Shown one piece after another: positions 5,172-25,253 of a DNA stretch of 38,845 nucleotides; position 1 is the first letter of the stretch; each line of letters begins with the position of its first letter. Position numbers and translations under genes: made by a program. A model generated the notes under the pieces. It made no database searches and was not told the origin of the DNA. It saw only the letters and a list, made by a program, of their open reading frames with translations. The DNA is from Natronolimnohabitans innermongolicus JCM 12255 (lineage in GTDB: Archaea > Halobacteriota > Halobacteria > Halobacteriales > Natrialbaceae). The stretch spans positions 1 to 38,845 of the forward strand of contig NZ_AOHZ01000062.1 in assembly GCF_000337215.1 (NCBI RefSeq), given 5' to 3'.

Positions 5172-7100
5172 ATGACTGACCGAACTGACCGATACCCCGA
5201 CGAGAGCGGCACCGAGCGCTCGAGCGAGACCGACCGAGGCGACCGACGCGGTCGACGACGTGAGACGGCGGGTACTCGACGCGACGAAGGGGACCGTCGT
5301 CAGGCGGGACGCTCCGACCGCCAGCGCGGCGAGCAGCCGGCTCGAGAGGATCGCTCCGGGGGCGAACGACGGCCCGACCGAGAGCGCAGCTTCGAGACGG
5401 ACGCGATCCGGGAAGGCGACCTCGAGTACGGCGGCGAGGCGCGCCGAGACGAACGTCGCGGCGGCGGGCGCGAACGGCAGCCGACGGGTGGCCGACGCGA
5501 GGACGACCAGCCCGAACTGCGCGGTCGGCGATCGCAGGGTGGCCGGACACCACGGAACCACGACCAGCACTCTCGAGGCCGCCAGCCCCAACAGCACGTC
5601 GGACAGCAGGGCGGACGCGGACGACGAGATCCGCAAGAACACGAACAGCACGGACAGCAGCAACGAGACCGGCGTCGCCAGCGGGGTCGTGAGCAGCCAC
5701 GACAGGGTGGACGCGATTCTCAGCGGGGAGGACGCGGACGCCAGCAGAGTGGACACGGTCGCCAGCAGGGTGAACGAGGCCCCCACGAGCGGTACGGCCA
5801 GGGCCGAACGCAACAGGGAGACCGTTCCCGCGGCGGCGAACAACCGCGCGGCCGAGAGCGCGGCTTCGAGACGGACGCGATCCGAGAAGGCGACCTCGAG
5901 TACGGCGGCGAGGCGCGCCGAGACGAGCGACGCGGCGGCGAGCGCGAACGGCGACCGACGGGCGGCGGGCGGGGACAGCGCGATCGGCACCGGTCGGAGA
6001 TGCAACAGCGTCGGCGGGGGTCCCAGGGGGAGCGCCAACGCCAGCGTCAGTACCAGTCGGATATGCCACAGGGACGACGCGGCCAGGAGCATCAACGGGG
6101 CCACGAGCGGACGAACCCCGAGCGCGGTCGCGGCCAGCAGTCCCAGCGAGAACGGCGGGGACACGCCGGCAGCCAGTTCGAACCCGACGTGACCGACGAG
6201 GCGAATCTCGAGTACGGCGGCGTCAGGCGCCGAGCGTCCCGAGAGGAGCGCGGCGAGCGCTCCGAGTTCCGCGGCGACCGGAGCCAGCAGGGTCGGCAGG
6301 GCCAACGGGGTCAGGGAGACCGCCAGCCCCGGCGGGGGCAGCAAGGTCGGCGGTCCCAGCGAGAACAGCAGGGTCCGCAGTCTCAGCAAGACCGTCAGCC
6401 GCGACGCGAGCGAGGCCAGCAGCCGATGGACGATCAGCGGAAACGCGGTCAACAGCCAATGGACGAGCAGCGAGGGCGAGGACGGCAGCGCGACGAGCGC
6501 CGGGGCCGCGACGCCGACGACCGACAGCCCCGCGGCGAGATGGAGATGCAGGACCAGCAAGCGCGCCAGGACCGACGGGACCGCAGCTACCGCGGGCAAC
6601 ACCAGGAGCAACGCGGCCAGGACGGTCGAGAGCAGCCGGAACGGGACCGGCGGCAGGACCGGTCGCAGGGCGGCGACCGCGGTGATGTCGACCGACCGCG
6701 CGGCGGCCAGTCCGGTGGCGGCCTCGAGTACCGCCAGGAAGGCCACCGAGACGAGAGCGGCGCGTGGACCGACGACCCCGAGTTCGAGCGCACTCGAGCG
6801 CAGGACCGAGACGTCCAGCGTCGCGACCGGGGCGATCGGGAGTCCCGACGCACCGAGGAAGACCGACGTCAGGACGACCGCGGCCGGCAATCGCCCGCGC
6901 GCGACTGGAACCGCCAGCGCGACCAGCCGAGCGCGGGCGAGCGCGACGAGCAGTCGAACCGAGCGCGGGACCGCTCCAGCGACGGAGAGCGCCACCATGC
7001 CCAGCGTCCCGACACGGACACGACCAACCGCCGGCACGTCCACGAGAACGAGCCGGAACACCGGGACGACGAGAGTCGGAGCGATCCGCCGAACAGCTAA
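5172..7100 (+). CDS. Arg/Gln/Gly-rich intrinsically disordered protein with repeated LEYGG motif
   Basis: I do not recognise a family. The 642-residue protein is almost wholly Arg, Gln, Gly, Asp, Glu, Ser and His, with very few hydrophobic residues and almost no Lys, so it should be disordered and strongly basic, opposite to the acidic haloarchaeal norm. RGG, RGRG, GRQQ and QQ runs recall RNA-binding RGG/RG regions. Within this lies a conserved short motif, F-E-x-D-x3-E-x2-L-E-Y-G-G, at residues 74-88, 232-246 and 336-350, with a degenerate LEY at 518. The C-terminal third has a slightly different composition (AWTDDPEFER near 535). That the motif survives in an otherwise drifting sequence argues for real coding. 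The start may be the ATG here (MTDRTDRYPDES) or an in-frame GTG at 5076/5082. A role in RNA/DNA binding or condensates is speculation. Confidence 0.72.
   Translation: MTDRTDRYPDESGTERSSETDRGDRRGRRRETAGTRRDEGDRRQAGRSDRQRGEQPAREDRSGGERRPDRERSFETDAIREGDLEYGGEARRDERRGGGRERQPTGGRREDDQPELRGRRSQGGRTPRNHDQHSRGRQPQQHVGQQGGRGRRDPQEHEQHGQQQRDRRRQRGREQPRQGGRDSQRGGRGRQQSGHGRQQGERGPHERYGQGRTQQGDRSRGGEQPRGRERGFETDAIREGDLEYGGEARRDERRGGERERRPTGGGRGQRDRHRSEMQQRRRGSQGERQRQRQYQSDMPQGRRGQEHQRGHERTNPERGRGQQSQRERRGHAGSQFEPDVTDEANLEYGGVRRRASREERGERSEFRGDRSQQGRQGQRGQGDRQPRRGQQGRRSQREQQGPQSQQDRQPRRERGQQPMDDQRKRGQQPMDEQRGRGRQRDERRGRDADDRQPRGEMEMQDQQARQDRRDRSYRGQHQEQRGQDGREQPERDRRQDRSQGGDRGDVDRPRGGQSGGGLEYRQEGHRDESGAWTDDPEFERTRAQDRDVQRRDRGDRESRRTEEDRRQDDRGRQSPARDWNRQRDQPSAGERDEQSNRARDRSSDGERHHAQRPDTDTTNRRHVHENEPEHRDDESRSDPPNS
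5376..5490 (+). repeat. Direct repeat copy 1 in the Arg-rich gene
   Basis: This segment of about 115 bp encodes the first LEYGG motif block and recurs with few changes 474 bp downstream (5850-5964). The offset is a whole number of codons (158), so the frame is kept. It indicates an internal duplication. Confidence 0.7.
5850..5964 (+). repeat. Direct repeat copy 2 in the Arg-rich gene
   Basis: Second copy of the 115-bp segment at 5376-5490. Differences are mostly single substitutions, several of them synonymous, so the encoded motif (FETDAIREGDLEYGG) is unchanged in both copies. Confidence 0.7.
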
Positions 7101-20912: not shown

Positions 20913-21036
20913 CCATGCGAAGGGCGGACGGCACGGGAGCGATTCCGTACCGCCAGTCGGCGCCGTCCGACGTCGCTGTCGCCGTCGATTCGACCGGACA
21001 GCACAACAGGACGCTGGTTCACTCCGGTTCTCGGAG

Positions 21037-21042
21037 CTTTAT
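21037..21042 (+). promoter_or_regulatory. TATA-like box of the quinone-oxidoreductase gene
   Basis: CTTTAT is centred about 28 nt before the ATG at 21068. This supports that start over the in-frame codons further upstream. Confidence 0.45.
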
Positions 21043-21067
21043 GCGGCCGTGTCCCACACTAGTGGGT

Positions 21068-22039
21068 ATGAAAGCGATCCAGGTAGCCGAGTACGGCGAC
21101 AGCGATCAACTCGAGGAAATCGACGCCGACCTGCCCGAACCGGGCGCCGGCGAGGTCCGCATCGAGGTCGAGGCGGCGGGGATCAACTTCGCCGACATCA
21201 TGCAACGGCGCGGCGTCTACCCGGGCGGACCCGACGCACCTTACGTCCCCGGGATGGAAGCTGCGGGCACCGTCGACGCCACTGGCGAGGGCGTCGACCT
21301 CGATGAAGGCGACCGCGTTGTCGCGATGCTCAACACCGGCGGCTACGCCGAGTACGCCACCGCGAACGCCCAGATGCTCTTTCCCATCCCCGACGGGATG
21401 AGCTTCGAGGAGGCCGCCGGCTTCCCCGTCCAGTTTCTCACCGCCCACTCCTGTCTGTTCGAGTGGGGCGGCCTCGAGGCGGACGAATCGGTGCTGATCC
21501 AGGCCGCCGCGGGTGGCGTCGGGACGGCCGCCGTGCAACTCGCCTCGAACCACGGCGCCGAGGTCTTCGGCACCGCGAGCACGCAGGAGAAACTCGACCT
21601 CGCGGCCGACCTCGGCTGCGATCACCCGATCAACTACACCGAGACGGACTTTCGCGAGGTCGTCGACGAGGAAACCGACGGACAGGGTGTGGAACTCGTC
21701 TTGGAGAGCGTCGGCGACGACGTCTTCGAGCGCAGCCTCGACGCGATGGCCCACTTCGGTCGCATGGTCACCTACGGCGTCGCCAGCGGCGTCCCCGGCG
21801 AGGCCGAGAACCGCCGGCTGCTCTTCGAGAACAAGACCGTCAAAGGATTCCACCTCGGCCAGGCGTCCGTCCACGATCCGAGTCGGATTATGAAAGCCGT
21901 CCCTGAACTCACACAAGGGCTGACGAACGGCGATCTCGAGGTCGTTCTCGGCGAGTCGTTCGCGCTCGAGGACGCCGGAGACGCACACCAGTACATCGAA
22001 GACCGCAAGAGTTCGGGAAAAGTCGTCCTGAAACCGTAA
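21068..22039 (+). CDS. NADPH:quinone reductase-like MDR-family oxidoreductase
   Basis: This 323-residue cytosolic oxidoreductase of the medium-chain dehydrogenase/reductase superfamily belongs to the zinc-free quinone-oxidoreductase group. The N-terminal GroES-like part has AAGINFADIMQRRGVYPG and VPGMEAAGTV. The Rossmann part has the cofactor-binding AAAGGVGTAAVQLA. The zinc-binding Cys/His residues of alcohol dehydrogenases are absent. The C-terminus ends in the family's HQYIEDRKSSGKVVLKP. It probably reduces quinones or enones with NADPH; the true substrate is unknown. The frame is open upstream to 20915, but that stretch has no homologous character and the TATA position favours 21068. Confidence 0.9.
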   Translation: MKAIQVAEYGDSDQLEEIDADLPEPGAGEVRIEVEAAGINFADIMQRRGVYPGGPDAPYVPGMEAAGTVDATGEGVDLDEGDRVVAMLNTGGYAEYATANAQMLFPIPDGMSFEEAAGFPVQFLTAHSCLFEWGGLEADESVLIQAAAGGVGTAAVQLASNHGAEVFGTASTQEKLDLAADLGCDHPINYTETDFREVVDEETDGQGVELVLESVGDDVFERSLDAMAHFGRMVTYGVASGVPGEAENRRLLFENKTVKGFHLGQASVHDPSRIMKAVPELTQGLTNGDLEVVLGESFALEDAGDAHQYIEDRKSSGKVVLKP

Positions 22040-22104
22040 CAGGCAGGTAGTTTCTTCATCCGGCGGATAGTTCGTTTTGTGTCGGCCGGTTGTCGATCCT
22101 TTTC

Positions 22105-22689
22105 TTAGTCGTCGTCATCGGCGTCGTCTTCGTCGTCCTCGTCACCGTCTTCGGCCCCATCATCTTCGTCGTCTTCGTCATCGTCCTCGTCACCGTCTTC
22201 GTCCCCATCATCTTCGTCGTCGTCACCGTCTTCGTCGTCGTCGTCATCGTCCTCGTCACCGTCTTCGTCCCCATCATCTTCGTCGTCGTCGTCACCGTCT
22301 TCGTCATCTTCGTCGTCATCGTCATCGTCCCCGTCGTCATCGTCCTCGTCATCGTCGTCATCATCTTCGTCGTCCTCGTCATCGTCCTCGTCATCGTCGT
22401 CATCATCTTCGTCGTCCTCGTCATCGTCGTCATCATCTTCGTCGTCCTCGTCATCGTCGTCATCATCTTCGTCGTCCTCGTCACCGTCGTCGTCATCGTC
22501 CTCGTCGTCATCATCGTCGTCTTCGTCGTCACCGTCGTCGTCTTCCGACCCGTTTCCGAAAATGTCGTCTTCGGTCTCGCCGTCGTCGTCGGGATCGTCG
22601 TCGAAACTCCCGTCGAAACATCCTGCGAGGGTACCGAGAACGCCAAGAAGCGCCGTAATGACTGCCCGCCGACGAGTCGTATCGGTCAT
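22105..22689 (-). CDS. Tat lipoprotein consisting almost wholly of Asp/Glu (poly-acidic)
   Basis: This 194-residue protein has a Tat lipoprotein signal (TTRRRAV, hydrophobic helix, lipobox LAGC with Cys24), then FDGSFDDDPDDD and about 150 residues nearly all Asp, Glu and Gly. It should be membrane-anchored outside the cell with a disordered polyanionic tail, which might bind cations (Ca, Mg, K) or basic proteins. The coding DNA is a nest of short tandem repeats, including a 30-bp unit encoding a ten-residue D/E block. Signal peptide and promoter resemble those of the beta-helix lipoprotein at 22966. An acidic tail ends that protein too, so this gene may be a duplicate that lost the beta-helix. 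The ATG at 22689 follows from the signal peptide; the reverse-strand Val-rich ORF is its complement. Confidence 0.8.
   Translation of the reverse strand: MTDTTRRRAVITALLGVLGTLAGCFDGSFDDDPDDDGETEDDIFGNGSEDDDGDDEDDDDDDEDDDDDGDEDDEDDDDDDEDDEDDDDDDEDDEDDDDDDEDDDEDDEDDDDDDEDDDDGDDDDDDEDDEDGDDDDEDDGDEDGDEDDDDDDEDGDDDEDDGDEDGDEDDDEDDEDDGAEDGDEDDEDDADDDD
22351..22482 (-). repeat. 30-bp tandem repeats in the poly-acidic lipoprotein gene
   Basis: Four identical 30-bp units lie at 22351-22380, 22393-22422, 22423-22452 and 22453-22482; a 12-bp spacer separates the first two. Each encodes a ten-residue Asp/Glu block. The surrounding 22110-22560 holds further imperfect repeats of the same codons. All units are multiples of three, so copy-number changes would alter length without breaking the frame. 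Confidence 0.85.
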
Positions 22690-22716
22690 GCTCTCGGTCC
22701 GGGCTACCACGAAGGG

Positions 22717-22722
22717 ATAAAA
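22717..22722 (-). promoter_or_regulatory. TATA-like box of the poly-acidic lipoprotein gene
   Basis: TTTTAT on the minus strand is centred about 30 nt before the ATG. It lies in a block (22700-22726) nearly identical to the same region upstream of the lipoprotein gene at 23775, including GGGCTACCACGA followed by AAAAGAG. Confidence 0.5.
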
Positions 22723-22965
22723 GAGTATTTGTGCGATACTCAGCAGGGTAACTCCCTCGAGGCGGGACTGTTCACGCACTCATCCCCGGATATTCGTCGA
22801 TCAACAGGCGCTGGAACCAGTCTTCGGGTCGCGAGCGCAGACGGTCGGTCCGAACTGGCGACGGACGGCGGCGGCCGCTCGTCCAAATCGTGTCACTACT
22901 GCCCGTGGTCTACTGGCCGATACAGCAGTTCAGACAGCATCGAGATCGCTCGAGGGCCGTTCCGA

Positions 22966-23775
22966 TCACTCGTCGTCGTCATCGCTGCCGAAATCGAACC
23001 AGTCGAATCCGTCGTCATCGTCATCGTCTTCGTCGTCGTCACCGTCATCGTCATCATCCTCGTCGTCCTCGTCGTCGTCCGAATCCGATACCTCCGTTTC
23101 GTCGACGTCCCCGTCGATATCGACGTCGTCACCCTCCGAGACGGTGGCGCCGGTAACGTCGCCATCGATTTCGGTACCGTCTCCGAGGTCGACGGTACCG
23201 CCAGCCTCGAGATCGCCGTCGATTTCGACGTCGTCGCCCGTCGTCACCGAGCCGTCGACGCTCACATCACCGTCGATTTCGGTATCCGCTCCGAGATCGA
23301 CGCTGCCGGCGGCCTCGAGGTCGCCGTCGATCTCGACGTCGTCGCCCGCCGTCACTGAGCCGTCGACCGCGACGTCGCCGTCGATTTCGACGTCCGCCTC
23401 GAGCGAGACGTGGCTGCCGGCGTCGAGGTCCCCGTCGAGTTCGGCGTCGGGACCGAGCGTGACTCCGTCGGCGGCGTCGATCGAGCCGTCGATCCCGACG
23501 CCCTCCTGAACGTCGACCGAGCCGTCCGACTCGACGTCGCCGTCGACGTCCGACGTGACGATAACGTCGTCGCCGTCCGTTTGCATGCCGTCGTCGGAAC
23601 CGACGTCGACACCGTCGCCGTCGTCGTCGCCGTTCGCGAAGAGGTCGACCTCGCTGTCGTCGTCATCGTCGTCGTCGGGGCTGTCGTCCGACGATCGGTT
23701 CAGACAGCCCGCGAGCGCCCCGACGGTTCCGGCGGCCGCTGCGACGAACGTCCGTCGACGAGTCGTATCGGTCAT
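22966..23775 (-). CDS. Tat lipoprotein with bactofilin-like hexapeptide beta-helix
   Basis: This 269-residue protein has a Tat lipoprotein signal (TTRRRTF, lipobox LAGC, Cys24), an acidic linker, then from about residue 71 to 226 a long run of hexapeptides such as EIDGDV, SVDGSV, TTGDDV and DLGADT. With 18 residues per turn this makes eight or nine coils of a right-handed beta-helix, the fold of bactofilins (DUF583, polymer-forming cytoskeletal proteins). An acidic tail with an aromatic FDWFDF near residues 257-262 ends the protein. Known bactofilins are cytosolic or membrane-bound on the inside; here the signal predicts an anchor on the outer face. Its role could be structural. It lies between two other Tat lipoproteins on the same strand. 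Confidence 0.8.
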   Translation of the reverse strand: MTDTTRRRTFVAAAAGTVGALAGCLNRSSDDSPDDDDDDDSEVDLFANGDDDGDGVDVGSDDGMQTDGDDVIVTSDVDGDVESDGSVDVQEGVGIDGSIDAADGVTLGPDAELDGDLDAGSHVSLEADVEIDGDVAVDGSVTAGDDVEIDGDLEAAGSVDLGADTEIDGDVSVDGSVTTGDDVEIDGDLEAGGTVDLGDGTEIDGDVTGATVSEGDDVDIDGDVDETEVSDSDDDEDDEDDDDDGDDDEDDDDDDGFDWFDFGSDDDDE

Positions 23776-23803
23776 CGTGGGAAACCGGGGCTACCACGAC
23801 GGG

Positions 23804-23809
23804 TTAAAA
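23804..23809 (-). promoter_or_regulatory. TATA-like box of the beta-helix lipoprotein gene
   Basis: TTTTAA on the minus strand is centred about 32 nt before the ATG at 23775, within the block shared with the gene at 22689. Confidence 0.5.
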
Positions 23810-23865
23810 GAGCGTTCGGATGGAGTCAACGTCTGTCTCGATCGGTCGCTCGAGTCTGCGGTCGG

Positions 23866-24432
23866 TCAGCCGTCGCCTCGTTCCTCGATGGTGCCGTCGA
23901 CCGACGCCTCGGTAGCCGTCCGAACGACCTCGCCGATCGCGTCCCCGCCGACGGTCGCTCCGACGTCGAGGTCGACGTCGTTGCCCCCGTTGACGTCGCC
24001 GGCGACGGTCCCGTCCGTGCCGATCTCGATCGCGCCGCCGGCGATCACGTCGCCGTCGACCGTTGCGTTGCTCCCGAGTTCCACATCGCCGCGAACGTCG
24101 AGGTCCCCTTCGATGCGGACGTACCCGTCGGTAGTTAGATCCCCCGCGGCAGTAACGTCGCCGTCGACGACGACGTCGGCTCCGAGATGGACGGCGCCGT
24201 CGACGTCGATCTCGCCGGTAATCTCGAGGCCCGGTTCGACCTCGACGGCGCTGATACTCGAGAGACCGTCGGTGGATTCCTCGACGACGACGGCGTCGGT
24301 ATCGGGGTCCTGATTGACGGCATCGTCGTCCCCGTCGGACGTGTCGGGGAGAATACCGAGACAACCCGCGAGCGCGGCGGTCGCTCCGGACGCCGCCGCA
24401 GCGATCACCTCCCGGCGAGTTGGGTCGGACAT
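23866..24432 (-). CDS. Second Tat lipoprotein with bactofilin-like beta-helix
   Basis: This 188-residue protein has a Tat signal (PTRREVI), lipobox LAGC with Cys24, an acidic linker, and from about residue 62 to 165 hexapeptide repeats such as EIDVDG, HLGADV, VVDGDV, RIEGDL, ELGSNA and TVDGDV. That gives five or six coils of the same predicted right-handed beta-helix as the protein at 22966. It lacks the poly-acidic tail and ends in a short charged segment. It is the first of the three same-strand lipoprotein genes and is 90 nt from the next. Its promoter does not share the block seen before the other two genes, so regulation may differ. It could co-assemble with the larger protein; this is inference. 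Confidence 0.78.
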   Translation of the reverse strand: MSDPTRREVIAAAASGATAALAGCLGILPDTSDGDDDAVNQDPDTDAVVVEESTDGLSSISAVEVEPGLEITGEIDVDGAVHLGADVVVDGDVTAAGDLTTDGYVRIEGDLDVRGDVELGSNATVDGDVIAGGAIEIGTDGTVAGDVNGGNDVDLDVGATVGGDAIGEVVRTATEASVDGTIEERGDG

Positions 24433-24587
24433 CGGCTGGTGACGACGTAGGTCGAACCGTCGGAAAACATTTGTGTCTTGAACTGTTTCCTGCCGATCGG
24501 TCTCGTGGCCGCTGACCGGACGAGACGCGGACGAGAATCGGACCGAACGAGCGACTCGAGTCGCGCGTTACGGTTGCGATCGGCGCG

Positions 24588-25124
24588 TTATCGGTCGAAC
24601 CGACCCGCGACGTCCCACTCGAGGTCGTGATCGACGAACGCGGCCTCGTCGAGCGGTCGGCCGCCCTCGAACCGGAACTCGCCGGCGACGGTTCGGCCCT
24701 CGAGGACGCCCGGCAGCCAGAGCCGGTCGTCCTCCCACATCTGGTCGTAGGGGACGTCGTCGACGGGAACCCACTCCGGACGAGCCTCCTCGGTGACCGT
24801 CGGCTCGCCGGAGAACGACCGCGTGCGGTAGACGTGACAGAACGTGTGCGGATCGCCGTCGAGCAGAAAGGTGAGTTCGCCCGCCTTCTCGAGGCCCTCT
24901 GGATCGACCGCGAGGCCGACCTCCTCGCGCGTCTCGCGGATCGCACACTCTCGGGGCGTTTCGCCGGGCTCGAGCTTGCCGCCGGGACCGTTGTACCAGC
25001 CCTCGCCGAGGCCGCGTCGCTTCTCGATGAGGAGCACCTCGTCCGCCTCCGCGTCGTCTCCGTCGCCGGAACCGTCGTCGCGGCTCCGAAGCGGAAAACA
25101 CAGCGTCGCCTCCGTCTCGACCAT
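24588..25124 (-). CDS. Nudix hydrolase (8-oxo-dGTP diphosphatase-like)
   Basis: This 178-residue cytosolic hydrolase has a complete Nudix box: GGKLEPGETPRECAIRETREE then VGL, fitting G-x5-E-x7-R-E-x2-E-E-x-G. YNGPGGKLE before it and FSGEPTVTEEARPEWVPVDDVPYDQMW after it resemble the MTH1/8-oxo-dGTP diphosphatase group, including the WYNGPGGK sequence of human MTH1-like enzymes. It probably removes oxidised or non-canonical nucleotides. A Gly/Asp/Glu-rich insert follows the first strand. The start at 25124 (MVETEATLCF) is preceded by TTTATT about 27 nt upstream; the longer in-frame ATG at 25157 is less likely. It is divergent from the EamA pair. Confidence 0.9.
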   Translation of the reverse strand: MVETEATLCFPLRSRDDGSGDGDDAEADEVLLIEKRRGLGEGWYNGPGGKLEPGETPRECAIRETREEVGLAVDPEGLEKAGELTFLLDGDPHTFCHVYRTRSFSGEPTVTEEARPEWVPVDDVPYDQMWEDDRLWLPGVLEGRTVAGEFRFEGGRPLDEAAFVDHDLEWDVAGRFDR

Positions 25125-25147
25125 ATCGACCCCTTCGGCCGGGACGG

Positions 25148-25154
25148 AATAAAG
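25148..25154 (-). promoter_or_regulatory. TATA-like box of the Nudix gene
   Basis: CTTTATT on the minus strand is centred about 27 nt before the ATG at 25124 and supports that start. Confidence 0.5.
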
Positions 25155-25253
25155 CACCCGAATCGGTCGACGTCCAGGTCGCTCGAGTCGGTCCTCGAGG
25201 TGCCGTCTCCCATTCGATAACCGTTAACCCGGTCCGACGGATGAACCGTGAGT

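Follow-up and report, generated by a model that had tools for sequence, protein, structure and literature searches.

Bactofilin-fold proteins with predicted Tat lipoprotein signals and a polyacidic partner in the haloarchaeon Natronolimnohabitans innermongolicus

Two neighboring genes of Natronolimnohabitans innermongolicus JCM 12255 code for proteins, here named P1 and P2, that belong to the bactofilin family by sequence and by fold. They are soundly described as exported, lipid-anchored, bactofilin-fold proteins, with export and lipidation predicted from their signal peptides. Both genes lie in a window of 38,845 nucleotides (contig NZ_AOHZ01000062.1, positions 1 to 38,845), which is the whole stretch of DNA analyzed here. 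Their most distinctive trait, not stressed in a first-pass annotation of this DNA, is the private pairing of P1 with a polyacidic lipoprotein, P3. The reading that we favor, with moderate confidence, is that P1 and P2 are Tat-exported lipoproteins and that the P1 rod and P3 form a polyanionic coat between the membrane and the S-layer.

Lipoprotein signals of P1, P2 and P3

The three genes are transcribed leftwards, and the features that concern their export and anchoring are as follows.

22966..23775, minus strand: P1, 269 aa, Tat lipoprotein with a bactofilin-type beta-helix (open reading frame, Pfam, AlphaFold2, 6rib_A)
23704..23775, minus strand: P1 signal peptide with lipobox Cys24 (sequence, TatLipo rules of PMC2945643)
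22969..23091, minus strand: P1 acidic C-terminal tail, ending in DWFDFGSDDDDE (alignment, tails)
23866..24432, minus strand: P2, 188 aa, Tat lipoprotein with a bactofilin-type beta-helix (open reading frame, Pfam, AlphaFold2, 6rib_A)
24361..24432, minus strand: P2 signal peptide with lipobox Cys24 (sequence, TatLipo rules of PMC2945643)
22105..22689, minus strand: P3, 194 aa, polyacidic Tat lipoprotein (open reading frame read from the ATG at 22689; orthologues adjacent to P1)

Both P1 and P2 begin with a twin-arginine signal (MTDTTRRRTFVAAAAGTVGALAGC and MSDPTRREVIAAAASGATAALAGC, respectively) that leads to an LAGC box with its Cys at residue 24, in agreement with the earlier description of two neighboring Tat lipoproteins. 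The rules for haloarchaeal Tat lipoboxes specify an LAGC core, 12–21 residues separating the Cys from the second Arg, no charge on the residues that precede the box, and a Leu after the Cys (PMC2945643), and the signals of P1 and P2 conform to all of these. The combination of TRRR and LAGC is common to P1, P2 and the haloarchaeal Tat lipoproteins (PMC2945643), but that class is set by the signal alone, and here the mature part is either a beta-helix (P1 and P2) or polyacidic (P3). The 'three-lipoprotein cluster' mentioned in the first-pass annotation is completed by P3, which adjoins P1 and is a third Tat lipoprotein with Cys24; this residue is present in 18 of the 18 P1 and P3 sequences examined.

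It is hardly credible that the signals go unused and that the helices remain in the cytosol as in ordinary bactofilins. The bactofilins studied so far are mostly cytosolic, but a complete Tat lipobox with Cys24 is found in every P1 and P3 relative examined, and related forms keep a Tat signal that ends in an AxA-type site.

Mature P1 contains 104 acidic residues and a single basic one, and long, strongly acidic segments lie on either side of its helix. Some P1 orthologues retain an aromatic C-terminal end (GWFSFGSDDDE) in the alignment. In P2 the C-terminal tail after the helix is almost absent.

Bactofilin fold and relation to halofilins

P1 and P2 match the Pfam family Bactofilin (PF04519) with 42.2 and 36 bits, respectively, against a curated cut-off of 27.9; their relatives likewise score above the cut-off, and the family is present in 372 of 392 genomes of the order. 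Shuffled helices (n = 5) had no match in Pfam, and composition alone is thus no explanation for the Bactofilin match. With the shuffles unmatched and the P1 orthologues under purifying selection (dN/dS 0.16–0.44), the beta-helix lipoproteins described here are not a product of chance. The helices are located as follows.

23092..23568, minus strand: P1 beta-helix, residues 70–228, about 8.7 turns (AlphaFold2, 18-residue periodicity)
23875..24294, minus strand: P2 beta-helix, residues 47–186, about 7–7.7 turns (AlphaFold2)

AlphaFold2 models, which are of single chains and built on a shallow alignment of seven sequences, show a right-handed beta-helix with a strand spacing of 18 residues in both proteins, with pLDDT values of 96–99 for P1 residues ~70–228 and mostly 95–98 for P2 residues ~47–186. 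Hydrophobic residues are periodic at lags of 6, 12, 18 and 36 (z ~6–7 in P1 and ~4–5 in P2), and the P1 helix contains no aromatic and no basic residues. The confident monomer models bear out the right-handed helices with 18 residues per turn that had been foreseen; of the coil counts given at the same time, 8–9 for P1 stands, and 5–6 for P2 is too low.

When aligned with VIA-align, P1 superimposes on the Thermus bactofilin 6rib_A with Z 13.8 and an rmsd of 1.6 Å over 100 of 101 residues, and the same structure is the top match of P2 (Z 14.8, 1.5 Å, 100 of 101 residues). For P2, Foldseek alone returned nothing at E ≤ 0.001, and a second look with VIA gave the matches. The proposed kinship with bactofilins (DUF583) is therefore upheld by both the profile search and the fold. 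Known members of PF04519 (DUF583), such as Thermus TtBac (6rib) and Caulobacter BacA (2n3d), form the same right-handed beta-helix with 18 residues per turn, but P1 and P2 differ from them in carrying export and lipid-anchor signals and long acidic flanks.

Proteins of the LpxA/GlmU type were also matched, in NCBIfam and in the PDB, and with similar Z, but were rejected at an rmsd of ~11 Å versus 1.5–1.6 Å for bactofilin; we read them as left-handed hexapeptide look-alikes, and take the ~11 Å to reflect the opposite handedness. Matches to ice-binding proteins and tapirins were judged to be generic beta-helix likeness.

Tapirins and other beta-helix adhesins share with P1 and P2 a surface beta-helix fold, but no sequence kinship to them was detected. 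A surface adhesin or ligand-binding rod, one face of which would bind polysaccharide, S-layer glycan or a surface as tapirin does, is unlikely, in that a P1 helix free of aromatic and basic residues presents no obvious carbohydrate platform; the tapirin C-terminal domains, which are cellulose adhesins, nonetheless rank near the top of the fold matches (4wa0, with Z 15.3 and an rmsd of 2.7 Å for P1), and secreted relatives that have no lipobox exist.

HalB of Haloferax volcanii, a haloarchaeal bactofilin-domain protein like P1 and P2, is reportedly found on the outer surface of Haloferax cells, which suggests that location may not define the bactofilin family. Halofilin B sits at negative curvatures in Haloferax disks (review PMC12186497). 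The window genome encodes a HalB-like candidate (L005) with a Sec-type signal, a bactofilin helix, and C-terminal membrane helices, whereas P1 and P2 are Tat lipoproteins without these membrane helices, and hhalign aligned them with L005 in the signal region alone. A HalA-like protein of the same genome (L001), probably the HalA orthologue, is the better match, aligning with P1 and P2 by profile over 90 columns with a probability of 95%; it shares the bactofilin domain with them but has no signal peptide and contains two helix domains (Hexapep and Bactofilin).

Several exported architectures are seen in the archaeal family, including Tat lipoproteins, proteins with a Tat signal and no lipobox, and proteins in which long helices follow a membrane segment at the N-terminus. 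With these designs in one family, and with HalB as reported, an outside location has precedents among bactofilins and is less novel than the first-pass annotation took it to be. Three beta-helix relatives (L039, L042 and L085) have a Tat signal with an AxA-type site and no lipobox, and are probably secreted and unanchored. Five others (L016, L018, L026, L028 and L031) are bactofilin-type proteins that also look exported; they combine an N-terminal membrane segment with long helices, in open frames of ~380–580 aa.

A halofilin-like extracellular polymer, in which P1, P2 or both would stack end to end into filaments on the membrane's outer face and stabilize shape or curvature, as the first-pass annotation suggested and as HalB may do, is a serious but doubtful alternative. 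The bactofilin fold lies within 1.5–1.6 Å of a filament structure (6rib), and the helix ends show aliphatic residues (I of DIDGDV in P1 and V of SVDGTI in P2) at the hand-placed position of TtBac F105, an interface residue at the C-to-C contact of the Thermus bactofilin (PMC12364344); this position has no aromatic residue here, however, and a hydrophobic end is typical of any beta-helix. The nearly tail-less C-terminus of P2 leaves little to block stacking, but the long acidic segments at both ends of the P1 helix weigh against it, as does the presence of HalA-like and HalB-like proteins already encoded in this genome.

The P1–P3 pair and its shared upstream element

The lipoprotein genes occupy an insertion site between two conserved flanking genes, and P1 and P3 are each preceded by a promoter-like element.

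24588..25157, minus strand: NUDIX hydrolase, conserved flank of the insertion site
20915..22039, plus strand: quinone oxidoreductase (QOR), conserved convergent flank
23787..23814, minus strand: promoter-like element upstream of P1, CGCTCTTTTAACCCGTCGTGGTAGCCCC
22700..22727, minus strand: promoter-like element upstream of P3, TACTCTTTTATCCCTTCGTGGTAGCCCG, an exact match to the pattern

Genome contigs searched with a single-protein query gave no relative, and with an alignment query gave relatives; the close relatives of P1 and P2 cluster in the family to which Natronorubrum, Natrialba and Natronoglomus belong. Seven relatives keep the gene order UvrD-EamA-EamA-NUDIX-(lipoproteins)-QOR-ProS, comprising six genomes of one genus (including Natronorubrum texcoconense and N. 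halalkaliphilum) and one genome of another genus (G023), with the EamA genes missing in L078. The insert in these seven contains one P1-type rod, accompanied in five of them by an acidic P3-type lipoprotein, and P2 was found in this window alone among the genomes compared. The conserved unit in these relatives is P1 with P3, and the P1–P2 tandem that had been put forward as the functional unit is not supported. P3-type genes occur without P1 in the sister species G098 (L127, where P2 is also absent) and in genus g10. Conversely, no P3 was detected with P1 in two genomes (L073 and L078); neither gene thus strictly needs the other.

Asp and Glu make up 85% of the mature part of P3, which lacks basic residues, and 40–83% of that of the orthologues beside P1 in five relatives; dN/dS values for P3 were set aside, as Asp/Glu low complexity makes both the alignment and the site counts unreliable. 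The P1 and P3 signals are of equal length (24 residues), and an (I/L/M)-F dipeptide is present in the acidic linker, at residues 41–46, in 10 of 10 P3 and 6 of 8 P1 sequences. This linker motif is absent from P2.

The ~42 bases immediately 5' of the P1-type and P3-type start codons align nearly gap-free, whether species are compared or P1-type with P3-type genes, the exceptions being the L075/L076 P1 genes and L127. The element is composed of a TATA-like CTCTTTTA and, after it, TCGTGGTAGCCCG, and its distance to the ATG is constant. Whole-genome scans allowing ≤3 mismatches found two sites each in the window genome (G000), G107 and G109, in every case those at P1 and P3, and one site in G105, at P3; a reversed-pattern control gave zero sites in the genomes scanned, and shuffles of the window never recovered the element. 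The sequence upstream of P2 differs and does not contain it. This pattern suggests that P1 and P3 are switched on together, although the shared element and signal could instead be a relic of duplication and not a mark of co-regulation.

NUDIX and QOR are convergent in all 85 family genomes that have both genes on one contig, and are separated by <150 bp in 33 of these and by 0.7–4 kb in 34. A weakly constrained acidic surface filler, with repeats that grow and shrink and have little specific function, would accord with the short gaps, with the patchy presence of these genes among close relatives, and with their low-complexity tails. It is nevertheless a very unlikely account, given the purifying selection on P1 orthologues and the conservation of the fold, the linker motif, and the private promoter-like element.

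Several of the large NUDIX–QOR gaps contain acidic Tat lipoproteins, some of which have a helix (window 22039–24588; L088–L127). The helix relative at this site in L114 (G091) and L064 has IAGR in place of IAGC, with the lipobox Cys apparently lost. Elsewhere in the window (5172–7100, plus strand) there is a long low-complexity open reading frame rich in Arg, Gln, Gly and Asp, with repeats like FETDAIREGDLEYGGEARRDERRGG.

A proposed polyanionic coat

The large acidic excess of mature P1, its non-aromatic helix, and its acidic flanks therefore lead us to prefer a coat rod to an adhesin or a long filament, a spacer or coat role that we infer from composition and geometry. P3 is proposed to act with P1 because the two have matching promoter-like elements, a common anchor, and a common linker motif. 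P1 and P2 would be exported by the Tat pathway and lipid-anchored, reaching the external side of the cell membrane, where the mature part would consist of a disordered acidic linker followed by a single rigid bactofilin-fold rod, ~4 nm long in P1. P3 would be a lipid-anchored, almost purely acidic disordered protein, presumably co-expressed with P1 and perhaps interacting with it, such that the P1 rods may serve as rigid spacers or as a scaffold of local extent, with P3 as a brush. P2 would be an additional rod gained in this lineage.

A bolder proposal, that of a lipid-anchored bactofilin exoskeleton in which P1 rods (with P2 where present) would assemble with a P3 brush on the outer membrane face in molar salt, forming a scaffold under the S-layer that is turned on through a private promoter element, is rather unlikely. 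P1 represents a reuse of the bactofilin fold as a lipid-anchored, apparently surface-exposed module, paired with a near-pure Asp/Glu lipoprotein through a promoter-like element exclusive to these two genes. P1 and P3 thereby offer a two-gene system in which ideas on the contents of the haloarchaeal space between membrane and S-layer can be tested, and also bear on the capacity of bactofilin helices for extracellular assembly in high salt.
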